From Bacteroidota bacterium (GTDB lineage: Bacteria > Bacteroidota > Bacteroidia > B-17B0 > Aurantibacillaceae), in assembly GCA_947450025.1 (NCBI GenBank), contig CANFTW010000002.1, forward strand, positions 124,001 to 188,000: a DNA stretch of 64,000 nucleotides. The letters are read 5' to 3'. Made by a program: the position numbers and the translations under genes. This document shows, piece by piece, positions 46,421 to 58,043 of this stretch; within the stretch, counting starts at the first letter, position 1; the number at the start of each line of letters is the position of its first letter. A model generated the notes under the pieces. The model worked only from the letters and a program-made list of their open reading frames with translations. It had not been told where the DNA came from and made no database searches.

Positions 46421-47113
46421 CTAAAACTCGAATTTATAACCAATTCCTTTGATAGTTTTGATATAATCATCCCCCAACTTTTCTCGGAGCTTTCTAATGT
46501 GAACATCAATGGTTCTATCACCAACCACTACTTCATCACCCCATACTTGTTCTAAAATAAATTCACGTGTAAATACCTTGCCTGGTTTACTAGCTAATAA
46601 AGACAATAATTTAAATTCTTTTTTTGGAAATGCGATTTCTAAACCTTCTTTATTATAAACGCAATATCTTTCTTTGTCTATTTTAATACCCCCTAAATCA
46701 ATTTCCGCTGATTTTTGCTGTTCTGGAGCATATCTTCTTAATAGTGCTTTTATTCTACTAATAAAAACTCTTGGCTTAATAGGTTTTGTAATATAATCAT
46801 CAGCTCCTACTTCAAAACCTGCAATTTGAGAATAATCTTCATTTCGAGCACTTAAAAAAGCAATCATCACATCTTTAAGATTTGCAATGTCTCTAATTTC
46901 TCTGCAAGTATCAATCCCATCCATTTCGGGCATCATCACATCTAAAACAATTAAATGAGGAATTTCTTTTTTAGCGATATTAATCGCATCTCTTCCATTA
47001 AGTGATGTGTAAACTTGAAATCCTTCTTTTTTAAGATTATAACTCAAAAAATCCAAAATATCTTGTTCATCATCAACAAGCAAAATCTTATATAAACTAT
47101 TTTCTGTACTCAT
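46421..47113 (-). CDS. OmpR/PhoB-family response regulator
   Basis: 'LLVDDEQD', 'LIVLDVMMPEMDGI', 'LSAR', 'DDYITKPIKP', C-terminal wHTH 'RTIDVHIRKLREKLGDDYIKTIKGIGYKFE'. Confidence 0.95.
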   Translation of the reverse strand: MSTENSLYKILLVDDEQDILDFLSYNLKKEGFQVYTSLNGRDAINIAKKEIPHLIVLDVMMPEMDGIDTCREIRDIANLKDVMIAFLSARNEDYSQIAGFEVGADDYITKPIKPRVFISRIKALLRRYAPEQQKSAEIDLGGIKIDKERYCVYNKEGLEIAFPKKEFKLLSLLASKPGKVFTREFILEQVWGDEVVVGDRTIDVHIRKLREKLGDDYIKTIKGIGYKFEF

Positions 47114-47285
47114 ATCTTTCTATCAACACAAAGTTAAGCTTAAACCTTGAGGTTAAAGTTAAATAAATATTAAGAAATAGCTGTATTTTATGCCTATTAT
47201 TAATATTTAGATAATATATATTAGAAAAATTATGTTTAATTTATTTTAATGACGAAATATCAAAAACAAACATAAATCATACGTA

Positions 47286-47324
47286 TTAACCTGTCATATA
47301 CTTTTAATTAACATTAAATTTACA
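47286..47324. promoter_or_regulatory. Array of four hexamers at 11-bp spacing (Pho-box-like)
   Basis: TTAACC 47286, TATACT 47297, TTAACA 47308, TTTACA 47319. Confidence 0.55.
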
Positions 47325-47348
47325 CGTAATTAGCTATTTTCACACTAT

Positions 47349-47753
47349 ATGACAACCACAATTAAGCAACTCATTGAGAAAAATAAAAAAGCATTTGATA
47401 ATAATTATTTGATTGAATCGATTAACTTATCTTATATTTTAATTAATAAAGCGCTTAAACAAATTATTAAAGATGAATTAAATCAAGAGGTGATTGATAA
47501 TAAAATCAAAACGTCTAATTTAATCAATCATATCAAAAAAGTTTTTGAAGTAAATCCTCAACTTAAAACAAAATTATCAAAAAAAGTAATCAAGGATATT
47601 GATCTGTTTATTGATTTATATAAATCAATTAGTAAAGAACTTAAATATCAATATCCTGAGAAAAAAATTTCAGAAACCGCTCAACTAGGCATAAACTGTA
47701 TCGTTATTTTAAATACCAGTCTATTAAAAATAAAAAACAACAAAGTTGATTAA
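47349..47753 (+). CDS. Hypothetical helical protein
   Basis: 134-aa ORF, Lys/Ile-rich, no recognised motif. Confidence 0.5.
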   Translation: MTTTIKQLIEKNKKAFDNNYLIESINLSYILINKALKQIIKDELNQEVIDNKIKTSNLINHIKKVFEVNPQLKTKLSKKVIKDIDLFIDLYKSISKELKYQYPEKKISETAQLGINCIVILNTSLLKIKNNKVD

Positions 47754-47885
47754 TTTTCAGGAAGTAATTATTATAAAACTTTCTTTTAAATCATCACAGC
47801 TAATATTAGTAATATAAAGCTAATATGAAATCACCCATGTATTAACATTAGGCAACGATATTTGTAGCGAACTTAAATCGCACTT

Positions 47886-48659
47886 ATGTTATTTGCCACT
47901 ATGACGGATCACGAAAACAGTTTAGTTTACGCCCAAACCATTCAAAATGGATTACTTCCTAAAGCCCGTCACTTTAAAAAGTTTTTCAAAGATTATTTTG
48001 TGTATTACAAACCACAAGATAAAATTGGAGGTGATTTTTACTGGTTAACACAAAAAGAAGATACTCTCTATTTTGCTTTAGCAGATTGCACAGGTCACGG
48101 CGTTTCTGGAGCTATGCTTTCGGTATTGGGGATTAGTTTATTAAACTATGTTATTCAAAAAAACTTTGACAAAGTTGGTGATTATTTGACAGAGCTAGAT
48201 AAAAAATGGTTAGAAACATTTAATAACGAATTACACGATTCAAGATTTAATAATGATTGGTTAGAAATTACCCTAATTTCTTTTAATACAAAAACCCGAG
48301 AATTTCAATATGCTAGTGGAGGAGGTGAATTTGCGATTCATCAAAATGACGTCATAACAATTCATAAAGGCAATAGCTATCCAATTGGAGGATGGCAAAT
48401 TGAAGAAAATAGATTATTTAATACATTTAATCTTACTTTAGAATATGATGCTAAACTCTATTTTTTCTCGGACGGCATCAAACACCAGTTTGACTCAACT
48501 AATCAAAAAAAATTTAGCAGAAAACGCTTATTAGATATTTTAAAACAACAGCATAAGGAGATGAATCATCAACAAGAATTCCTAGAATTCATTTTTGATT
48601 CTTGGAAAGGAGTCAATCATCAAACTGATGACATATCCATAATTGGATTAAAATTATAA
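47886..48659 (+). CDS. SpoIIE/PP2C-like serine phosphatase
   Basis: 'DKIGGDFYWL', 'FALADCTGHGVSGAMLSVLGISLLNYVI', 'FFSDGIKHQFD'. Confidence 0.88.
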   Translation: MLFATMTDHENSLVYAQTIQNGLLPKARHFKKFFKDYFVYYKPQDKIGGDFYWLTQKEDTLYFALADCTGHGVSGAMLSVLGISLLNYVIQKNFDKVGDYLTELDKKWLETFNNELHDSRFNNDWLEITLISFNTKTREFQYASGGGEFAIHQNDVITIHKGNSYPIGGWQIEENRLFNTFNLTLEYDAKLYFFSDGIKHQFDSTNQKKFSRKRLLDILKQQHKEMNHQQEFLEFIFDSWKGVNHQTDDISIIGLKL

Positions 48660-48668
48660 TTCAACCAA

Positions 48669-48696
48669 TGTTAATTTAATGTTAAATTAATGCAAA
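48669..48696. promoter_or_regulatory. Three hexamers at 11-bp spacing upstream of TonB receptor (Pho-box-like)
   Basis: TGTTAA 48669, TGTTAA 48680, TGCAAA 48691; further TTAACA at 48712. Confidence 0.5.
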
Positions 48697-48788
48697 AAAT
48701 TTTAATTCAATTTAACATTAAAGTAATATACAATTGACGCTAAACTTAAGTAGATGTTGTTTTTTTGCCTCGAAAATCACAACACGTT

Positions 48789-51716
48789 ATGTTCAAAAAA
48801 ATCATACTTACACTTTCTATATCGCTTATAGCAAATATAGCAAATGCGCAAACTGGAAAAATTATTGGTAAAATGATCGATGCCAAAACAGGTGAAACCT
48901 TACCAGGTGCAACCGTCTTAATTGAAGGGACTACTAAAGGAGCTTCAGCCGACTTTGATGGAAACTACACCTTAGCTGGACTTCAACCTGGCAAATATAC
49001 AATTATAGCAAGTTATATTACTTACGATAATAAAAAATTTGTTGGTGTGGTTGTTAAATCAAATGATGTTACCGAATTTAATATTAGCCTAGAGCAATCA
49101 AGCTCTCAAAATTTAAATGAGGTAGTTATTCAGGCAGAAATGAATAAAGAAAATACCAATACATTACTAGTCATGCAAAAAAATAACGCCAGTGTTAGTG
49201 ATGGAATCTCGTCTGAAAGCATTAAAAAAACGCCAGACAGAAGCACAGCAGATGTTATTAAACGTATTAGCGGGGCAACTATTCAAGATAATAAATTTGC
49301 AATTATTAGAGGAATGAGCGATCGATATAATGCTGGATTTATAAATGGAGCGCCATTACCAAGCTCTGAAAGTGATAAAAAGGCATTTTCATTTGATATG
49401 TTTCCAGCCAACATCTTGGATAATATTGTGATATTAAAAACTGGAAGACCTGATTTAACTGGAGAATTCGGTGGGGGTGTTATTGAGATTAACACTAAAA
49501 ATGTACCCGAAAAAAACTCACTATCTTTAGCTATTGGTGCGGGCGATAATTTTCAAACTACATTTAAAAATTTTCAAACTACCAAAGCAGGAAAATATGA
49601 TTGGATTGGATTTGATGATGGAACAAGAGCTCTTCCGAAAGGCTTGCCAAATCCTGCATTTACAATCGATAAAAATCAACAAATTGAGAATGCTAAAAAA
49701 TTTAATTACGATTGGACTCTTAAAAACAAACAAGCCTTACCTAATTTTAATTTTCAAGGAACATTATCAAATGTAGCAAAATTAGGTAAAAATGGAAGTT
49801 TTGGAAGCGTATTTGCCTTAAACTATAATTCGTTTAATACAACAACATTCTCTACTAGACGTACTTTTGATGATCCTGGTAGCAATTTTGATTTAAATAA
49901 ATTAACCGAATACCATGATACTACATATTCGAACGTGAAATTGGTAAGTGCTTTGTGGAATTTAGCATTTAAATTTAATCCAAAACATCAAATTACTTTC
50001 AAAAACTTATACAGCATCAATACCGAAAATAAAGTGATTACTAGAAATGGTGAATACGATATTCAAGGTGGCAATAGCTATGAAAAAACAAGCTTACGTT
50101 GGTTTACACAAAATAATATTTATTCAGCACAATTAGGTGGTGACCATTATTTTGAAAAATCAAAAATTAAAGTTAAATGGATTGGCGGTTATAGTAATAT
50201 TCTTCGAGATATACCAAATTTGAGTCGAATGAGACGTACTAGCATATCTGAAAACGGTCCTTATTACGCCACTTTTGGAACTTATGGAACTGACCCTACG
50301 GCGGCAGGATCAATGCTATTTTTAAATACTGTTGAACATATTAATAGTTTTAGAGCTGATGTGAGTCGTTCTTTTAATATTGGAAAAACTAAACATGAAT
50401 TTTCTTTAGGTGGAAGTTCCATTTACCGTGAAAGAACATTTACATCTCGTTTATTTGGATATAATCATTATTCAAAAGGCATTAGTATTTATCCAAATAA
50501 TAATTTAGACTATTTAGATGATTCGCAAATTTTTTCACAACAAAATATTGGCATTGTAGACGGGCCTGGAAACCACGACGGTGGATTTTTAGTGGTGGAA
50601 TCATCTACGCCTAAAGATTCTTACCGCGCTTATTCATATACTCATGCAGGTTATGTGATGGGTGATTCTCGCTTTTTTAATAGTAAATTACGCCTTATAT
50701 ATGGCTTAAGAGCAGAATCTTATCGTCAAGTGTTGGAAGGTGTTCTTTATGGAAAACCACAAACCAAAGACAGCACTGTATTAGACATTTTACCTTCTGC
50801 AAACATAGTTTACAGTCTTACTGATAAAATTAATGTTAGAGCGGCTTATTTTAGATCGGTGGCGCGTCCAGAATTTCGTGAGTTAGCCCCCTTTACATTT
50901 CTAGATTTTACAACTTCCATGTACCTAACAGGTAATCCTGATTTAATACGTTCAAAAATTGATAATTACGATTTACGTTTTGAATGGTTCCCTAATGCTG
51001 GGCAAATTGTTTCGGTATCTGGATTCTACAAAAAAATAGACAATGCTATTGAACAAGTACTAGATATAGGAACTATTGGTGCGGGTAATTATGGTATTAC
51101 ATTTGCCAACTCTAAATCTGCGCACAATATTGGAGCTGAATTAGAAATACGTTTTAAATTGAGCAGTTTTTCTCATAAACTAGATTCAATTAAATTTTTG
51201 AATAACACAAGTGTTTTTGCTAATTATGCTTATATCCAGTCTAGTGTAGATAATTCTAATATTTATGGAAGCGGAGTGCGTCCATTACAAGGCCAATCTC
51301 CATTCATGTTTAATGCAGGTATCCAATATCAAGAAAAAGGTTGGGGCGCAGCTATTTCGTATAATTATGTTGGCAAAAGAATCGTTATTGTTGGAGGGGA
51401 TGCTTATCCAAATATTTGGGAAAACCCTCGTCATATAATGGATTTACAATTATCTAAAACATTTTGGAAAAATCATTTTGAGGCTAAATTAAACTTACGT
51501 GACGGTTTTGCAAATGGAATTAAAATTGGAAAAAAACAAATGGTCACTTCGCAAAATCTAATTTGGTATCAAGACATTGATGGAAACGGAAAACTAACTA
51601 AAGGCTCTGTTGATGCTGGGCAAGGAACCACTCACTCTCACGCCTATGATAATGTATTCATCAATACTAAACTATCACCAAGTTTATCAATCTCTATAGC
51701 TTATAAAATATTTTAA
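48789..51716 (+). CDS. TonB-dependent receptor with carboxypeptidase-regulatory-like domain
   Basis: 'GKIIGKMIDAKTGETLPGATVLIEGTTKGASADFDGNYTL', plug 'IIRGMSDRYNAGFINGAPLPSSESDKKAFSFDMFP'. ATG at 48789 preferred. Confidence 0.92.
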   Translation: MFKKIILTLSISLIANIANAQTGKIIGKMIDAKTGETLPGATVLIEGTTKGASADFDGNYTLAGLQPGKYTIIASYITYDNKKFVGVVVKSNDVTEFNISLEQSSSQNLNEVVIQAEMNKENTNTLLVMQKNNASVSDGISSESIKKTPDRSTADVIKRISGATIQDNKFAIIRGMSDRYNAGFINGAPLPSSESDKKAFSFDMFPANILDNIVILKTGRPDLTGEFGGGVIEINTKNVPEKNSLSLAIGAGDNFQTTFKNFQTTKAGKYDWIGFDDGTRALPKGLPNPAFTIDKNQQIENAKKFNYDWTLKNKQALPNFNFQGTLSNVAKLGKNGSFGSVFALNYNSFNTTTFSTRRTFDDPGSNFDLNKLTEYHDTTYSNVKLVSALWNLAFKFNPKHQITFKNLYSINTENKVITRNGEYDIQGGNSYEKTSLRWFTQNNIYSAQLGGDHYFEKSKIKVKWIGGYSNILRDIPNLSRMRRTSISENGPYYATFGTYGTDPTAAGSMLFLNTVEHINSFRADVSRSFNIGKTKHEFSLGGSSIYRERTFTSRLFGYNHYSKGISIYPNNNLDYLDDSQIFSQQNIGIVDGPGNHDGGFLVVESSTPKDSYRAYSYTHAGYVMGDSRFFNSKLRLIYGLRAESYRQVLEGVLYGKPQTKDSTVLDILPSANIVYSLTDKINVRAAYFRSVARPEFRELAPFTFLDFTTSMYLTGNPDLIRSKIDNYDLRFEWFPNAGQIVSVSGFYKKIDNAIEQVLDIGTIGAGNYGITFANSKSAHNIGAELEIRFKLSSFSHKLDSIKFLNNTSVFANYAYIQSSVDNSNIYGSGVRPLQGQSPFMFNAGIQYQEKGWGAAISYNYVGKRIVIVGGDAYPNIWENPRHIMDLQLSKTFWKNHFEAKLNLRDGFANGIKIGKKQMVTSQNLIWYQDIDGNGKLTKGSVDAGQGTTHSHAYDNVFINTKLSPSLSISIAYKIF

Positions 51717-51737
51717 TTGAAAAATTAATGTTTTTCT

Positions 51738-51772
51738 AAAAAGGCTTTTATACTTTGTATAAAAGCCTTTTT
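51738..51772 (+). terminator. Intrinsic terminator after TonB receptor gene
   Basis: AAAAAGGCTTTTATAC-TTT-GTATAAAAGCCTTTTT perfect 16-bp stem. Confidence 0.9.
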
Positions 51773-51777
51773 TACTG

Positions 51778-51816
51778 TGTTAACAGATTGTAAAGTAAAT
51801 ACTAATTAAGTGTATA
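51778..51816. promoter_or_regulatory. Array of four hexamers at 11-bp spacing (Pho-box-like) upstream of T9SS surface protein
   Basis: TGTTAA 51778, TGTAAA 51789, TACTAA 51800, TGTATA 51811. Confidence 0.55.
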
Positions 51817-51908
51817 TTTTTAACTATTACTTAATCTATAATTAAAGTTATCGTAATCAAGCTCTAATGATAATCGAATACATTTGCTCATAAAAAAAAT
51901 AAAATAAA

Positions 51909-54900
51909 ATGAAAAAAATCTACTTAGCAGCAGCATTATTAGCTTCTTCGCTTATCAACGCTCAATCTCCGTACTCATGGACACCTACGACTTATAAAGG
52001 TGCATTCCCTGTAACTGACGGAAACACAGGTATTAACTCTAACGATTGGACAGCTGGTTGGACTAATTGGGACTGTGAAAATACAGTATACCCTGCTCCA
52101 ACAATGACTGTAACTGGTGACATTAATTCAAATACAACTTGGACTACAGGTAGTGTTGTATACTTAAATGGATTTGTACATGTCATAAACAATGCTGAAT
52201 TAACAATTCAACCTGGTGTAATCATTCGTGGTAAACAAACTGATGCAACTTTAACTCCTGGTATTTTGTGTATTTCTCCAGGTTCTAAAATTCATGCGAA
52301 TGGCACAGCTAGTGCTCCAATCGTATTTACTTCAATTCAAAGTCCCGGCAATCGTGCTGCACATGATTGGGGTGGATTAATGATATTAGGAAAAGCTCCT
52401 GTTAATCTTCATACAACTACTTTAGCAGCATTCACGCCTACTGCTACTGGATACTACTCTATGCGTTTAGAAGGTTTTACTTCGGAAAACCCTAATCGTG
52501 TATTTGGTGGAACTAATCCTAATGATAACTCAGGTGAGTTAACATATGTTCGTGTTGAATTTGGTGGAGTAGCATTAGATCCTACTCAATTAAATTCCGA
52601 AATCAACGCATTTACTTTTGGTGCAGTTGGAAACGGAACTACAATGCATCATTTACAAGCTTGCTTTAGTGGTGATGATTCATTTGAATGGTTTGGTGGC
52701 ACAGTGAACGCAAGATATTTAGTTGCCTACCGTGGTATTGATGATGATTTTGATACTGATAATGGTTACAATGGCAATGTGCAATTTGGTTTAGGAATAA
52801 AAGACCCCAACATCGCTGATGATTCACAACCTTCATACGAATCTAATGGTTTTGAAAGTGATAATAATGGTGTATCACCATATAATGGAAAAACTTATTC
52901 TGGTCAAATTTTGCATACTAATGCTACATTTTCTAATATGACTTTAATTGGTCCTTGGGCTGGAGGAAACGCGTATGGTTTAAACACTGTAAATGGGCAT
53001 CATGCTTCTGCGGCTCATTTACGACGTAATACAGCTCAATATGTTAGAAATTCAATATTTGTTGGATATAACCGTGGTTTGAGATTTCAAACAGCTTCTA
53101 CGAAAGACAACTTAACAGCTACTTCAGGTGATAGTACTAGCGCTTTCAAAACCAATGTTTTAAGCGGAAGTTTTCCTAACTATCTTACAACTAATAGCTT
53201 CTCTACAACTCCTACTGTAGGAACTGATGTTAATACTGCTTGGGTTCTTCAAACAGCAGATGGCTTTACTAGATCATTTTATGCGGGTTATGCAACAGCC
53301 AATCAAATTGATACTTTAACAACTGCATCTCAAATTAACTTTGTAAATTCAAACTTTAGTAGTACTTCAGGTTTAGATAATTCAAGTGGTGTAGCGTTAG
53401 TACCTGATTTTCGTTTGAATGCTAGTTCAAATGTTTCAACTGGAGCTGATTTTACAAATTTATGTTCAGGAGTATCAATTACAACTTCAACTGTGGCGCC
53501 AATTTGCGCAAATCAAACATTAAATTTACAATCTAACGCATTAGGAACTGCTCCTATTACATATACTTGGACTGGATTAGGAACTATTGCTAGCGCTAAC
53601 TCTGCAAGCACTTCTGTTACTGGAGCTTCTGGCAACTATACTTTATATGCAACAAATGCTTGTGGAACTTCTAGTTCGGTTGTAAATGTAACTGTTAATG
53701 CATTACCAACTGTTACTTTAGGAACATTTACTCCTTTATGTATATCAAATTCTAGCTTTACTTTAACTAGTGGATTACCTTCTGGTGGTACTTACTCAGG
53801 AAATGGAGTTACTGCTGGTGTGTTTAATCCTACTTCTGCTGGAGTTGGAACACACACTATTACTTATTCTTACACAAATGGAAATGGCTGTTCAAATTCA
53901 GCTTCAAAAAACATAACTGTTAATGCTTTACCAAATGTTACTTTAGGAACATTTTCTCCTGTTTGTTTATCAAATGCTAATATTACTCTTACTAGCGGAT
54001 TACCTACAGGTGGTTCCTACTCTGGTAATGGTGTAGCAAGTGGTGTATTTAGCCCAGCAAATGCTGGTGTTGGTGCGCAAACTATTACCTATTCATTTAC
54101 AGATGGAAATGGCTGTTCAAATTCAGCATCAAATAACATTACTGTTAATGCTTTACCAAATATTTCAATAATATCTAGTACAATATGTGCGGGTGCTACA
54201 GGTACAGTTTCAGCTAGTGGAGCTGCTACTTACACTTGGAATACGGGAGCTACAACAAATTCAATTATAGATAATCCTTCTACAACAACGGTATATACTG
54301 TTAGTGGCACATCTGCTGCGGGCTGTTTAGGATCTTCAGTTTCAGCAACAATTACAGTAGGCGCTGCGCCTAGTATTGTTGTAAACTCTGCTAGTGTATG
54401 TGCGGGAAGTTCTGCTACATTAACAGCAAATGGAGTTACAACTTACACTTGGAACACGGGAGATAACTCTGCTAGCATCATAGTTACACCAACAGTTAAT
54501 ACAGTATATAACGTAAGTGGAAATTTAATTGGATGTGGAGTTTCGGCTAGCAATACAGCTACAGTTACGATAAATACTTTACCAGTTATTTCCGTTAATT
54601 CAGGAGCTATTTGTTTAGGTCAATCATTTACAATAACGCCGAGCGGTGCAACAACTTATACTTATTCTAGCGGAAGTAATATAGTAAGTCCATCAGCAAT
54701 TCAATCATATACAGTAACTGGTACAAATGTTAACGGTTGTGTAAGTGCTTCAGGAGCAATAAGCACAGTATCAGTAAACGCTTTACCTAATGTTAGTATA
54801 GGAACATTTTCTGCGGTATGTTTAGCAAATGCAAGCTTTACTTTAAATAACGGATTACCTTCAGGTGGTTCTTACTCAGGCAATGGAGTTGCAACTGGAG

Positions 54901-55295
54901 TATTTAGCCCTGCATCTGCCGGAGTTGGAACACACACTATTACTTATTCTTACACAGATGGCAATGGTTGCTCTAACACAGCTTCAAATAATATCCTAGT
55001 TAATACTTGTACAGGTATTAATAATGTTGAAGTTCAAAATGAATTAGTTACAATGTATCCAAATCCAACTTCTAATCAAACTTCTTTAATCGTTAATTCA
55101 AATATTGTATCTAAAATTAATGTATTCATTTACGATTATACAGGTAAATTAGTTTTAAATCCAATTAATGAAAATGTCATTGAAGGTAACAATGAATTTA
55201 AAATCAATACTGAGAATCTTTCAAATGGAATTTATTTAGTAAGCATCATTACTAATTCTTTAAAAGAAACTAAAAAATTAGTAATCAATAAGTAA
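51909..55295 (+). CDS. T9SS-targeted surface protein with Ig-like repeat modules
   Basis: Signal peptide; 'AHDWGGLMILGKAPVN' N-domain; repeat modules; T9SS tail 'MYPNPTSNQTSLI...NGIYLVSII'. Confidence 0.88.
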   Translation: MKKIYLAAALLASSLINAQSPYSWTPTTYKGAFPVTDGNTGINSNDWTAGWTNWDCENTVYPAPTMTVTGDINSNTTWTTGSVVYLNGFVHVINNAELTIQPGVIIRGKQTDATLTPGILCISPGSKIHANGTASAPIVFTSIQSPGNRAAHDWGGLMILGKAPVNLHTTTLAAFTPTATGYYSMRLEGFTSENPNRVFGGTNPNDNSGELTYVRVEFGGVALDPTQLNSEINAFTFGAVGNGTTMHHLQACFSGDDSFEWFGGTVNARYLVAYRGIDDDFDTDNGYNGNVQFGLGIKDPNIADDSQPSYESNGFESDNNGVSPYNGKTYSGQILHTNATFSNMTLIGPWAGGNAYGLNTVNGHHASAAHLRRNTAQYVRNSIFVGYNRGLRFQTASTKDNLTATSGDSTSAFKTNVLSGSFPNYLTTNSFSTTPTVGTDVNTAWVLQTADGFTRSFYAGYATANQIDTLTTASQINFVNSNFSSTSGLDNSSGVALVPDFRLNASSNVSTGADFTNLCSGVSITTSTVAPICANQTLNLQSNALGTAPITYTWTGLGTIASANSASTSVTGASGNYTLYATNACGTSSSVVNVTVNALPTVTLGTFTPLCISNSSFTLTSGLPSGGTYSGNGVTAGVFNPTSAGVGTHTITYSYTNGNGCSNSASKNITVNALPNVTLGTFSPVCLSNANITLTSGLPTGGSYSGNGVASGVFSPANAGVGAQTITYSFTDGNGCSNSASNNITVNALPNISIISSTICAGATGTVSASGAATYTWNTGATTNSIIDNPSTTTVYTVSGTSAAGCLGSSVSATITVGAAPSIVVNSASVCAGSSATLTANGVTTYTWNTGDNSASIIVTPTVNTVYNVSGNLIGCGVSASNTATVTINTLPVISVNSGAICLGQSFTITPSGATTYTYSSGSNIVSPSAIQSYTVTGTNVNGCVSASGAISTVSVNALPNVSIGTFSAVCLANASFTLNNGLPSGGSYSGNGVATGVFSPASAGVGTHTITYSYTDGNGCSNTASNNILVNTCTGINNVEVQNELVTMYPNPTSNQTSLIVNSNIVSKINVFIYDYTGKLVLNPINENVIEGNNEFKINTENLSNGIYLVSIITNSLKETKKLVINK
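53693..55010 (+). repeat. Coding repeat modules of two types (A: WNTGATT type; B: GGSYSGNGV...TYSYTDGNGC type)
   Basis: Modules seen in translation; same two module types occur in the 36342-41318 ORF. Boundaries approximate. Confidence 0.8.
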
Positions 55296-55346: not shown

Positions 55347-56039
55347 ATGCTAAAAAAATTTAATATAGTCATTTGTTCAAATAACAATAGTTCATTAAAA
55401 AAGGTAGTCGAATATTTAGAAGAAAAAAATTATACCGTAACTCTAGCTAATTCAGATGAGCATTTATATTCCTTATTAAATAGCAAACTAGTTAATTTAG
55501 TTATTATAGAATTAGACTATAAATATAAGGATGGCATTACATTAACTTCCGATATCCGAAATTTAAAAGAAATTGAACAACCTTACATTATTATTTATTC
55601 AAGCAAACAAGATGATTATATTCAAATAACTGCCTTTAATTCTGGCGTAGATGATTTTATCATATCACCTATTAAACCCATTTTATTAGAAGCTCGTATC
55701 TCAACTCTAAAAAAACGATTTGATAATAGAGAAGCAGATACTATAGATGAAATAAAAGATCACAATTTTTTTGTAGATAAAGAGCAGTACTTAATCATTA
55801 CGAAGGCAGGAAAAATTAGTTTACCTAGAAAAGAATTTGAAATGGTCAGCTTAATGTATCAAAACACTCAAAAAACATTTACCCGTCAAGATTTTGCTAA
55901 ACTCATATGGAACTCTCCTGAGGTTGCAAATAGCAGAACTATTGATATTCATATCAGAAATATTCGCCGCACTCTAGGCAACGATATTATAAAAACCACT
56001 AAAGGTATTGGCTATACTATAAATAGAGATTTATTGTAA
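55347..56039 (+). CDS. OmpR-family regulator with pseudo-receiver domain (Asp->Glu)
   Basis: Aligns to the 46421-47113 product but with 'CSNN' for 'VDDE', 'IIELDYKYKDG' for 'VLDVMMPEMDG', 'IISPIKP' for 'ITKPIKP'; wHTH 'RTIDIHIRNIRRTLG' intact. Confidence 0.85.
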   Translation: MLKKFNIVICSNNNSSLKKVVEYLEEKNYTVTLANSDEHLYSLLNSKLVNLVIIELDYKYKDGITLTSDIRNLKEIEQPYIIIYSSKQDDYIQITAFNSGVDDFIISPIKPILLEARISTLKKRFDNREADTIDEIKDHNFFVDKEQYLIITKAGKISLPRKEFEMVSLMYQNTQKTFTRQDFAKLIWNSPEVANSRTIDIHIRNIRRTLGNDIIKTTKGIGYTINRDLL

Positions 56040-56054
56040 AAACTATCTTTATAA

Positions 56055-57086
56055 TTAAATAAATAAGAGGGGTTCCTCTCTTAAAATTTTGCTTTCACTA
56101 GGATACGTATCAAACAAAAATTCTAAAGTCTCATGAATCTGATTGGCTTTTATAGAAGGATTTTGATGTCTATTTGAATACCATTCATCAATAATTTCCG
56201 AAAAATTTTCATCAATTCCATCTAACACATTAACACCTAATTTCTTTAAAGCAGCGGCATTACATTGCTGTTCATAATGGTTTTTAATTGGGATGCTAAT
56301 TAATTTCTTACCAAGATATAAGGCTTCTGAAGGTGTTTCAAAGCCTCCGCCTGTAATCAATCCGTGACAATTTAATAAACTTTTATTGAATAAATCCTGA
56401 TTAATAGGATAGTAGGTAATATTATCTTCTATACGAATAGATTCAACTCCATCTAAAAACCAATGAAACTGAATGTGTTTCAATTTAGTAAAAGCATCAT
56501 ATAAACAATGTTGCTGAAAAGATGGTAAATAAACGGTCACATGTTTTAAATCTGTAGGCTTAGCATTTATAAATTCATCTTTAATAACAGGAGGTAAAAT
56601 AAAGTCATCATATTTATCAAAATGAAAACCTATATGATTTGTAGCATGTGCGTAATGTTTTAAAATTGTCTCACCAATTAAACTTTTTTTATCTGGACGA
56701 GGTGTAGCATTAGATTGAAAACTCGCCTGATGTCCAAGTTGAACAGAAGGTAGTTTCTTTAATTTACAAGCTAAAGATGTCACAAAATCAAAATCATTTA
56801 TGATCACATCATACTTTTCTAACGGTAAAGCTTGGGCATCTTTATACATCATCAATGGTTTAATGTTTTTAACCACATCAAAATAATTTAATCCGCCGCA
56901 TTTACTATAATGCAAGCTACAACCCTTACTACGATATTTAACAGGAAATTTAAAATTTAAATTGGCGTTATTACCGCTAATAAAAAAATCAACTTCTCCA
57001 TATTGTTTTAAATAGGGATATAATTGCTGAGCTCTGCTGATATGACCATTACCCGTAGCTTGAACTGCGTAAAATATTTTTGCCAT
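56055..57086 (-). CDS. Glycosyltransferase family protein (GT28/MurG-like fold)
   Basis: 'VQATGNGHISRAQQLYPYL', 'LITGGGFETPSEALYLGKKLISIPIKNHYEQQCNA'. Confidence 0.82.
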   Translation of the reverse strand: MAKIFYAVQATGNGHISRAQQLYPYLKQYGEVDFFISGNNANLNFKFPVKYRSKGCSLHYSKCGGLNYFDVVKNIKPLMMYKDAQALPLEKYDVIINDFDFVTSLACKLKKLPSVQLGHQASFQSNATPRPDKKSLIGETILKHYAHATNHIGFHFDKYDDFILPPVIKDEFINAKPTDLKHVTVYLPSFQQHCLYDAFTKLKHIQFHWFLDGVESIRIEDNITYYPINQDLFNKSLLNCHGLITGGGFETPSEALYLGKKLISIPIKNHYEQQCNAAALKKLGVNVLDGIDENFSEIIDEWYSNRHQNPSIKANQIHETLEFLFDTYPSESKILREEPLLFI

Positions 57087-57096
57087 GACTATAAAA

Positions 57097-57969
57097 CTAT
57101 TTTAAATGAGTTGAATGATGCTTATTATAGGATAGAAAAATTTCCTCCGTAACTGATACGGAAATTTTAGAAACAATATCTTGCTCAACAAAATTTTCTT
57201 TTGGATAAATCAAATCGAAATAATTTTTATCATAATGGAAAATTTCCCAATGACCATCATTATACTCCAGAGCTGTAAGATTTTCAATCCAATCACCACT
57301 ATTTAGATACATGATAGAACCCTTATCAGTATTTACTTCCTTTATTTGAGGCATATGAATGTGACCACAAACAACGTAATCATAATTTTTCTCAATAGCT
57401 AATTCAGCAGCTGTCGTTTCAAAATCATTTACAAAGGCTACTGCTTTTTTTACACTATCTTTCACTTTTTTTGAGAAACTCATTTTTTCTCTTCCAAGTA
57501 ATTGCAAAACCCAATTTATAAATCGATTAATAAGGATTAACAAATCATAACCCTTACCCCCTAGTTTTGCAAGAAATTTCCCATAACCTTTAGTGCTCGA
57601 ATCAAATACGTCTCCGTGAAAAAACCAAGTTTTTTTACCATCTAGGTTAAGTAAAAGTTTATCAACTATTTCTAAATTACCTAATTGCAAATCCGTATAC
57701 TTTCGCAACATCTCATCATGATTTCCGGTAATATAATAAACATGAGTGCCATGACTAGCCATTTTCATAATCTGACGTAACACATCCATATGAGAACTAG
57801 GAAAATAATTTTTACTAAAGTTCCACATGTCAATAATGTCGCCATTAAGGACTAAGGTTTGTGGATTAACTGTTTTTAAGTAATGAAGTAATTCCTTAGC
57901 GTGACAGCCAAACGTGCCTAAATGCACATCGCTGATGACTAAAAGTTGCAATTCTCGTTTGCTATACAT
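57097..57969 (-). CDS. UDP-2,3-diacylglucosamine diphosphatase-like metallophosphoesterase (LpxH-like)
   Basis: 'VISDVHLG', 'LNGDIIDMW', 'ITGNHDE', 'FFHGDVFD', 'VCGHIHMPQ'. ATG at 57969 preferred. Confidence 0.88.
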   Translation of the reverse strand: MYSKRELQLLVISDVHLGTFGCHAKELLHYLKTVNPQTLVLNGDIIDMWNFSKNYFPSSHMDVLRQIMKMASHGTHVYYITGNHDEMLRKYTDLQLGNLEIVDKLLLNLDGKKTWFFHGDVFDSSTKGYGKFLAKLGGKGYDLLILINRFINWVLQLLGREKMSFSKKVKDSVKKAVAFVNDFETTAAELAIEKNYDYVVCGHIHMPQIKEVNTDKGSIMYLNSGDWIENLTALEYNDGHWEIFHYDKNYFDLIYPKENFVEQDIVSKISVSVTEEIFLSYNKHHSTHLK

Positions 57970-58043
57970 GATTAGTTTTTTCAAAAATACAGACACATTA
58001 TTAAGTTAATGTATTTTGAATATTAAATAATATATAACAAAAC

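Follow-up and report, generated by a model that had tools for sequence, protein, structure and literature searches.

We analysed a 64,000-nucleotide stretch of the genome of a Bacteroidota bacterium of the Aurantibacillaceae (contig CANFTW010000002.1, forward-strand positions 124,001 to 188,000; hereafter the window), in which arrays of TTAACA-like hexamers stand in the intergenic regions next to the gene of an OmpR/PhoB-type response regulator, here named RR1. These arrays are very probably Pho boxes that serve a flavobacterial PhoB-PhoR system, bound by the phosphorylated regulator (RR1~P) and activating a regulon for starvation of inorganic phosphate (Pi). The motif, its spacing, its conservation, its target genes and its phasing to the core promoter were established by computation.

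Arrays of 11-bp units in the window and its relatives

A sequence-only reading of this DNA had listed eleven hexamers at exact 11-bp spacing in three intergenic regions. All eleven were found letter for letter at their coordinates, with a step of 11 bp throughout and far above chance. Across the whole 64-kb window, TTAACA triplets at 11-bp steps with up to three mismatches were confined to these three arrays (arrays 1 to 3 in Table 1), and three of the four TTAACA pairs at 11 bp with at most one mismatch fell in them. The listed arrays are therefore real, but the inventory was incomplete, as further exact 11-bp arrays, nearer the genes, were found in the promoters of RR1, a TonB-dependent receptor and a surface protein secreted by the type IX secretion system (T9SS). 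The arrays missed are those at 51820-51869, 48712-48739, 47157-47173 and 47200-47216, the first being the largest, with five units that start at 51820, 51831, 51842, 51853 and 51864. The array at 47200-47216 may be functional, or may be left over from a divergent promoter in an ancestor.

The repeat unit is cTTAAYAT plus 3 bp, and the refined motif reads cTTAAYATTaaSTTAAYATnaa. When a matrix whose members all came from distant Bacteroidota loci and from pst promoters (genus sites had been part of the initial seed) was applied to the window, four matches of at least 15 bits were obtained, compared to an expectation of 0.2 in Markov sequence. These matches, at 51817-51852(+), 48653-48688(-), 47141-47176(-) and 48709-48744(+), all lie in the RR1, TonB and T9SS promoters, and the main T9SS-promoter array was the top match, at 19.8 bits.

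The arrays were also conserved upstream of the orthologous TonB, T9SS and regulator genes, which is the conservation that the sequence-only reading had proposed to look for. At the position of array 1, relatives retain TTAATAATAAGTTTACA, and in the TonB promoter the forward array nearer the gene is kept across the alignment as TTTAATATTAAGGTAATATA...TTGACA. In the module promoters of 20 relatives together with the window, TTAACA-like pairs with at most one mismatch in total occurred 22 times at 11 bp compared to 0.6 in dinucleotide shuffles (~35-fold), and the next-highest count at any other spacing was 5. We then turned to 80 distant loci collected via alignment of the T9SS domain, which contained a TonB receptor gene (74 of 80), an RR1-type regulator (32 of 80) and a PhoR-type kinase (22 of 80). 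Upstream of the genes of these loci, 11-bp pairs numbered 21 against 0.7 expected where RR1 was linked and 43 against 1.2 where it was not, with extra spacing peaks at 21-22 bp; the remaining genes on the same contigs gave 12 against 2.1.

Register with the core promoter

Bacteroidota promoters carry TAnnTTTG at -7 plus a -33 element (PMC2483708). In the RR1, T9SS and PiT promoters of the genome from which the window comes, a unit starts exactly 26 bp ahead of TAnnTTTG, and the same distance was counted 21 times in the genus set. In the distant set, the unit-to-box distances peaked at 15, 26, 37, 48 and 59 bp, and the reversed box gave a flat distribution. When each distant promoter was represented by its best forward site alone, 23 of the 33 first boxes (29 of 33 with one base of leeway) shared one residue modulo 11, with a binomial p of ~4e-17, and no such modulo-11 peak was seen for reverse-oriented sites in the distant promoters. 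Array units thus stand at 15+11n bp from TAnnTTTG, a fixed position relative to the core promoter, as for a Pho box. With this phasing the units all face the same side of the helix and keep step with the core promoter, which is what would be expected if an activator took over the role of the -33 contact.

Phosphate genes outside the locus

Since the pst genes were not picked via the locus of the window, the sites at their promoters are the strongest reason for reading the arrays as Pho boxes. Phylum-wide, 11-bp pairs in pst promoters numbered 7 compared to 0.1 expected, and 21 compared to 1.4 when two mismatches were allowed; clear boxes precede the pst operon even in a genome of 61% GC (CTTAACAGTAAGTTAACACTG). 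Of the enrichment upstream of phosphatase, pst and TonB genes that the sequence-only reading had named as support, that at pst promoters was found, and the arrays of the TonB promoters are conserved.

The same reading had proposed a genome-wide scan. The genome of the window (G000; 3.2 Mb in 28 contigs) was searched by pattern and by model, and in chosen stretches. The exact core TTAACATTAANTTWACA occurred four times in it and not at all as the reversed-pattern control; across 20 genomes of the genus it occurred 15 times, compared to three for the control. Thirteen of these 15 sites lie at PiT phosphate transporters (PF01384; six sites upstream), at a pair of genes for a CarboxypepD-domain and a MORN-repeat protein whose orthologs lie within the locus in relatives (five) and in the window (two). 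At several of the PiT sites one more gene lies upstream, which in locus L065 encodes a phosphate-selective porin.

A genome model, which used sequence only and was built from 42 sites of distant loci and pst promoters, gave 39 matches in the same genome. Among these 39, the promoters of the CarboxypepD/MORN genes ranked 2 and 3, that of the TonB receptor 4, of PiT 7, of the T9SS protein 11, of the gene of a 134-amino-acid (aa) protein 16 and of RR1 24. The top-ranked match, C5:190078, was rejected as chance, as it overlaps the start of a predicted open reading frame beside a methyltransferase-like gene, and several further matches fall within genes. The CarboxypepD/MORN pair (L104 7452-8388, contig C10) has a Pho-box array upstream of each gene, and a matching pair lies inside the phoB locus in relatives, L047, L048, L049 and L052 among them. 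On contig C3 (L103 6279-9188) there are two tandem PiT genes, of which only the upstream one was found to be preceded by a Pho box. TTWACA pairs, which may be due to chance, also precede a nadA-like gene by 56 bp (L007 1501-1517) and a peptidase S51 (cyanophycinase-like) gene by 14 bp (L005 1501-1517).

RR1, its kinase and the proposed switch

RR1 is likely the protein that binds the arrays. Its receiver and winged helix are present with the acid pocket, the acceptor Asp and the Lys intact, and it is the most PhoB-like protein of its genome, being the top match of the Bacteroides PhoB model. A HisKA/HATPase kinase of PhoR type lies directly beside the RR1 ortholog in other families; one such genome (G024) has the layout kinase-RR1-TonB-T9SS, and the models nearest to its kinase are PnpS and PhoR. 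In the genome of the window the kinase ortholog lies away from RR1 (G000:C15:18809-19852); the genus retains the kinase, though not adjacent to RR1. The 140 bp preceding the kinase gene were searched for a TAnnTTTG box and yielded none.

That RR1 binds the arrays, that Pi is the signal and that the outcome is activation rather than repression, we infer as follows. When Pi is scarce, the PhoR-type kinase, now away from its ancestral place beside RR1, would phosphorylate RR1. RR1~P would then bind the cTTAAYAT repeats head-to-tail at 11-bp spacing, one protein per unit. With the forward units aligned along the same side of the DNA, 15+11n bp away from TAnnTTTG, bound RR1 would replace the -33 element and, in its place, recruit RNA polymerase. 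The targets would be the RR1 gene itself, the TonB receptor, the T9SS surface protein, PiT and the CarboxypepD/MORN pair, with the 134-aa gene and a phosphoesterase/glycosyltransferase pair as further, probable targets. The expected outcome would be capture of organic phosphate at the cell surface, import of Pi and sparing of membrane phosphate.

The sequence-only reading had proposed a co-regulated module of the regulator, the 134-aa protein, a SpoIIE-like phosphatase, the TonB receptor and the T9SS protein, possibly responsive to phosphate starvation. The arrays, together with the PiT and pst sites, largely support this module, except that an array belonging to the SpoIIE gene itself was sought and not found, so that it could be co-regulated only by read-through from the 134-aa gene. 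To the module we add a predicted autoregulation of RR1, the PiT gene and, probably, a lipid-remodelling operon.

A PhoB/PhoR-type pair and PiT occur in this genome without PstC and PhoU, and phosphate sensing must therefore differ from the Pst/PhoU model, which raises the question of how PhoR here senses phosphate. Taken together, a phylum-wide Bacteroidota Pho box of the form cTTAAYATnnn in 15+11n register with TAnnTTTG, at which PhoB replaces the -33 element, a genus that does so without Pst and PhoU, and a non-phosphorylatable paralog reading the same arrays make up a tentative proposal, possible in its entirety and on balance doubtful.

Comparison with known phosphate regulators

The PhoP box of Bacillus subtilis consists of TTAACA-like hexamers in an 11-bp repeat. 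The arrays described here resemble it in these repeats and differ in phylum, sigma factor and targets. Units repeated every 11 nt are described in a review (PMC4415409). In cyanobacteria, the SphR Pho box is made of tandem 8-bp units with a 3-bp linker, a CTTAAC core and usually at least three units (PMC1906773). The SphR CTTAACCT repeats are nearly identical in form to our arrays; the unit here is instead CTTAAYAT, it stands in register to the Bacteroidota -7 box TAnnTTTG, and the target sets differ. A box of the Escherichia coli CTGTCAT type was dropped as a candidate, as array 1 holds a single CTGTCATA (47290-47297) without a repeat.

Among Bacteroidota, a study of Riemerella anatipestifer gives TTTAACA as the most conserved portion of the PhoP motif obtained by DNA affinity purification sequencing (DAP-seq), with PhoP binding both its own promoter and the promoter of a TonB-dependent receptor; the authors read the motif as ArcA-like and tied it to redox and virulence (PMC9603813). 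Riemerella PhoPR is a Flavobacteriales system and a putative counterpart of ours, and an 11-bp array, a -7 phasing and a phosphate regulon are not described in the part of that study available. Bacteroides fragilis PhoB binds the pst promoter in an electrophoretic mobility shift assay (EMSA), the site being left undefined in the part of the paper available (PMC3547664). In the phoBR/PUSIV locus of Flavobacterium johnsoniae (Fjoh_0541-0549), phoB and phoR lie beside a TonB receptor and the beta-helix-type surface protein FII, and the products of Fjoh_0545 (the TonB-dependent transporter) and Fjoh_0546 (FII) are among those strongly induced by Pi starvation (PMC8115612). The term 'Pho box' is absent from the main text of that paper. 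The G024 layout matches this locus; the window differs in its relocated kinase and in the length of its T9SS protein, 1128 aa.

The Riemerella DAP-seq, F. johnsoniae omics and B. fragilis EMSA data agree with the Pho-box reading, and it is because of the nearly identical cyanobacterial boxes together with the Riemerella and B. fragilis data that we class the arrays as Pho boxes. Pho boxes themselves are already known, and what is new is the phylum-wide definition and the -7 register; among open-licence papers, in which omics and single EMSAs are known, no operator of the Bacteroidota phosphate response turned up. A defined Pho box of 11-bp units with fixed promoter geometry opens the way to regulon prediction across the phylum, and the geometry hints at how activation may work at a promoter as unusual as that of Bacteroidota. 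Such a box brings the TonB/ElpS-like surface system and PiT, and possibly lipid remodelling as well, under a single switch, and makes the phosphate switch, little defined in Bacteroidota, directly testable.

Points against the reading and alternative explanations

Several observations weigh against Pho boxes read by RR1. The best NCBIfam model for RR1, PhoB TIGR02154, scored 219 bits, under its cut-off of 296, and the Bacteroides PhoB model NF053854 scored 204, under 270; the G024 kinase likewise reached 231 compared to a cut-off of 334 for TIGR02966. A search of the genome of the window found no PstC, PhoU or pst operon, so that the classical Pi-sensing complex is missing and the Pst/PhoU hallmark of such systems is absent. 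Individual genome-wide matches were not significant (best E 0.1), and the loose two-mismatch pattern occurred 62 times genome-wide compared to 51 for its control, which is near noise. The -7 boxes were assigned by consensus, and no perfect one is present in the TonB promoter. Finally, orthologous sequences are related rather than independent counts, and the shuffles were made at the dinucleotide level.

A second regulator may have a part in the system. RR2, a PhoB-like protein at the end of the locus that is kept in most relatives, has a degenerate receiver in which the acid pair and the conserved Lys are lost in all relatives examined and the acceptor Asp is replaced by Glu in the genus and by Asn in distant relatives; the winged helix is kept, and RR2 may act without phosphorylation. 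One explanation, compatible with the Pho-box reading, holds that RR2 shares the arrays and tunes or antagonises RR1 without being phosphorylated, the reverse and forward arrays serving two regulators. The retention of RR2, the consistency of its losses, its conserved DNA-binding domain and the two oppositely oriented arrays per promoter favour this addition. However, the winged helix of RR2 is unlike that of RR1, and the reverse TonB arrays could be left over from the divergent RR1-TonB promoter found in L058, L061, L062 and L064, and we consider such sharing rather unlikely.

Binding of the arrays by a different regulator of the OmpR/PhoB family that answers a signal other than phosphate, such as redox, as for the ArcA-like Riemerella PhoP motif, is improbable. 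OmpR-family sites do share 11-bp repeats, the genome encodes several more OmpR-type regulators, and the likeness to ArcA was drawn by the Riemerella authors (PMC9603813). The motif is nevertheless found at PiT and pst promoters and is conserved, in aligned relatives, in the promoter of RR1 itself, and no protein of the genome is more PhoB-like than RR1. Chance in AT-rich DNA, or a structural A-tract periodicity in place of protein-binding sites, was rejected by the spacing and phasing tests and has almost no probability left, since, although the window has only 32% GC and near-matches with two mismatches are almost as frequent in the control, only 11 bp and its multiples stand out, and the sites occur in GC-rich genomes, are conserved in the same places and are phased to the -7 box.

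Genes of the locus

To the right of RR1, the genes on the plus strand are in the order 134-aa protein, SpoIIE-type phosphatase, TonB receptor, T9SS protein and RR2 (Table 1), an order retained in much of the genus. The 134-aa protein had no Pfam or NCBIfam match, and its family stays beside phoB across much of the genus. In L058, L061, L062 and L064, the RR1 and TonB genes adjoin directly and point away from each other, and a single region carries both sets of arrays; the duplicated layout of the window would fit an insertion of the 134-aa and SpoIIE genes with a duplication of the promoter. L053 and L055 have an additional gene between RR1 and the 134-aa gene, which in L053 encodes a PstS-like binding protein, a further point in favour of the Pho-box reading.

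Table 1. Genes, arrays and promoter elements of the locus, in window coordinates.
Feature	Position	Strand	Remarks
RR1, OmpR/PhoB-type response regulator	46421..47113	-	PF00072 + PF00486 (receiver + winged helix)
RR1 -7 element TAACTTTG	47129..47136	-	conserved in relatives; unit-to-box distance 26 bp
RR1-promoter Pho-box array	47157..47173	-	TTAATA + TTAACT; 15.8 bits; kept in RR1 upstream alignment
Conserved forward array TTAATATTTAGATAATA	47200..47216	+	counterpart of TonB proximal array; 11.7 bits
Array 1, upstream of 134-aa gene	47286..47324	+	TTAACC, TATACT, TTAACA, TTTACA; core an exact match
134-aa protein	47349..47753	+	conserved at locus in genus
SpoIIE/PP2C-type phosphatase	47886..48659	+	PF07228
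Array 2, distal, upstream of TonB gene	48669..48696	-	TTTGCA-N5-TTAACA-N5-TTAACA; 16.9 bits; conserved
TonB-promoter proximal array	48712..48739	+	TTAACA-N5-GTAATA-N5-TTGACG; 15.5 bits
TonB-dependent receptor	48789..51716	+	PF00593, PF07715, PF13715
Array 3, four units, upstream of T9SS gene	51778..51816	-	site retained in relatives
Main T9SS-promoter array, five units at exact 11 bp	51820..51869	+	TTAACT, TTAATC, TTAAAG, GTAATC, CTAATG
T9SS-gene -7 element TACATTTG	51879..51886	+	15 and 26 bp from last two unit starts
T9SS-secreted surface protein, probable beta-helix N-terminal domain	51909..55295	+	PF18962
RR2, second PhoB-like protein, degenerate receiver	55347..56039	+	
MJ1255/VC2487-type glycosyltransferase	56055..57086	-	PF13528; TIGR00661 below cut-off
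Metallophosphoesterase, candidate PlcP-type	57097..57969	-	PF12850 + PF00149; LpxH models below cut-off
Weak predicted Pho-box promoter of phosphoesterase/glycosyltransferase pair	57982..58026	-	TTAATA units 15 + 37 bp upstream of TATTTTTG

Surface proteins and possible lipid remodelling

In Caulobacter, the surface protein ElpS (CC0170) and the TonB receptor CC0171 form a pair linked to Pi starvation (PMC2996285), and the F. johnsoniae proteins FI-FIII are related to ElpS (PMC8115612). By gene pairing, the TonB receptor of the window would be the counterpart of CC0171, and the T9SS protein, by gene pairing and published fold modelling, appears ElpS/FII-like. ElpS is a lipoprotein released via the type II secretion system, whereas the protein of the window is T9SS-sorted. 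The model of the T9SS domain (predicted local distance difference test score 75.7) had a weak likeness to the pectate-lyase/polygalacturonase fold of beta-helix polysaccharide enzymes, with no such fold hit below E 0.001, consistent with the published modelling of FI and FII, and PDB sequence and Foldseek searches with this domain gave nothing significant. The protein is about twice the length of most of its relatives in the genus (about 550-585 aa), and the extra part, which separates the N-terminal domain from the sorting tail, looks repetitive.

The metallophosphoesterase and glycosyltransferase genes adjoin RR2. The pairing of a phosphoesterase with a glycosyltransferase is known for phosphorus-sparing lipid remodelling (PMC4796936); the domains and gene order here fit the PlcP-glycosyltransferase pairing, although the phosphoesterase may be LpxH-like rather than PlcP-like, and the glycosyltransferase is a candidate lipid-remodelling enzyme. 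In the phosphoesterase promoter of the window and of four relatives, KTAAYR units could be read 15 and 37 bp from TAnnTTTG. As a minor observation, L151 (CP034120.1), titled as the gammaproteobacterium Glaciecola amylolytica, has a Fluviicola-like gene neighbourhood (compare L143 and L171) and is possibly misnamed.

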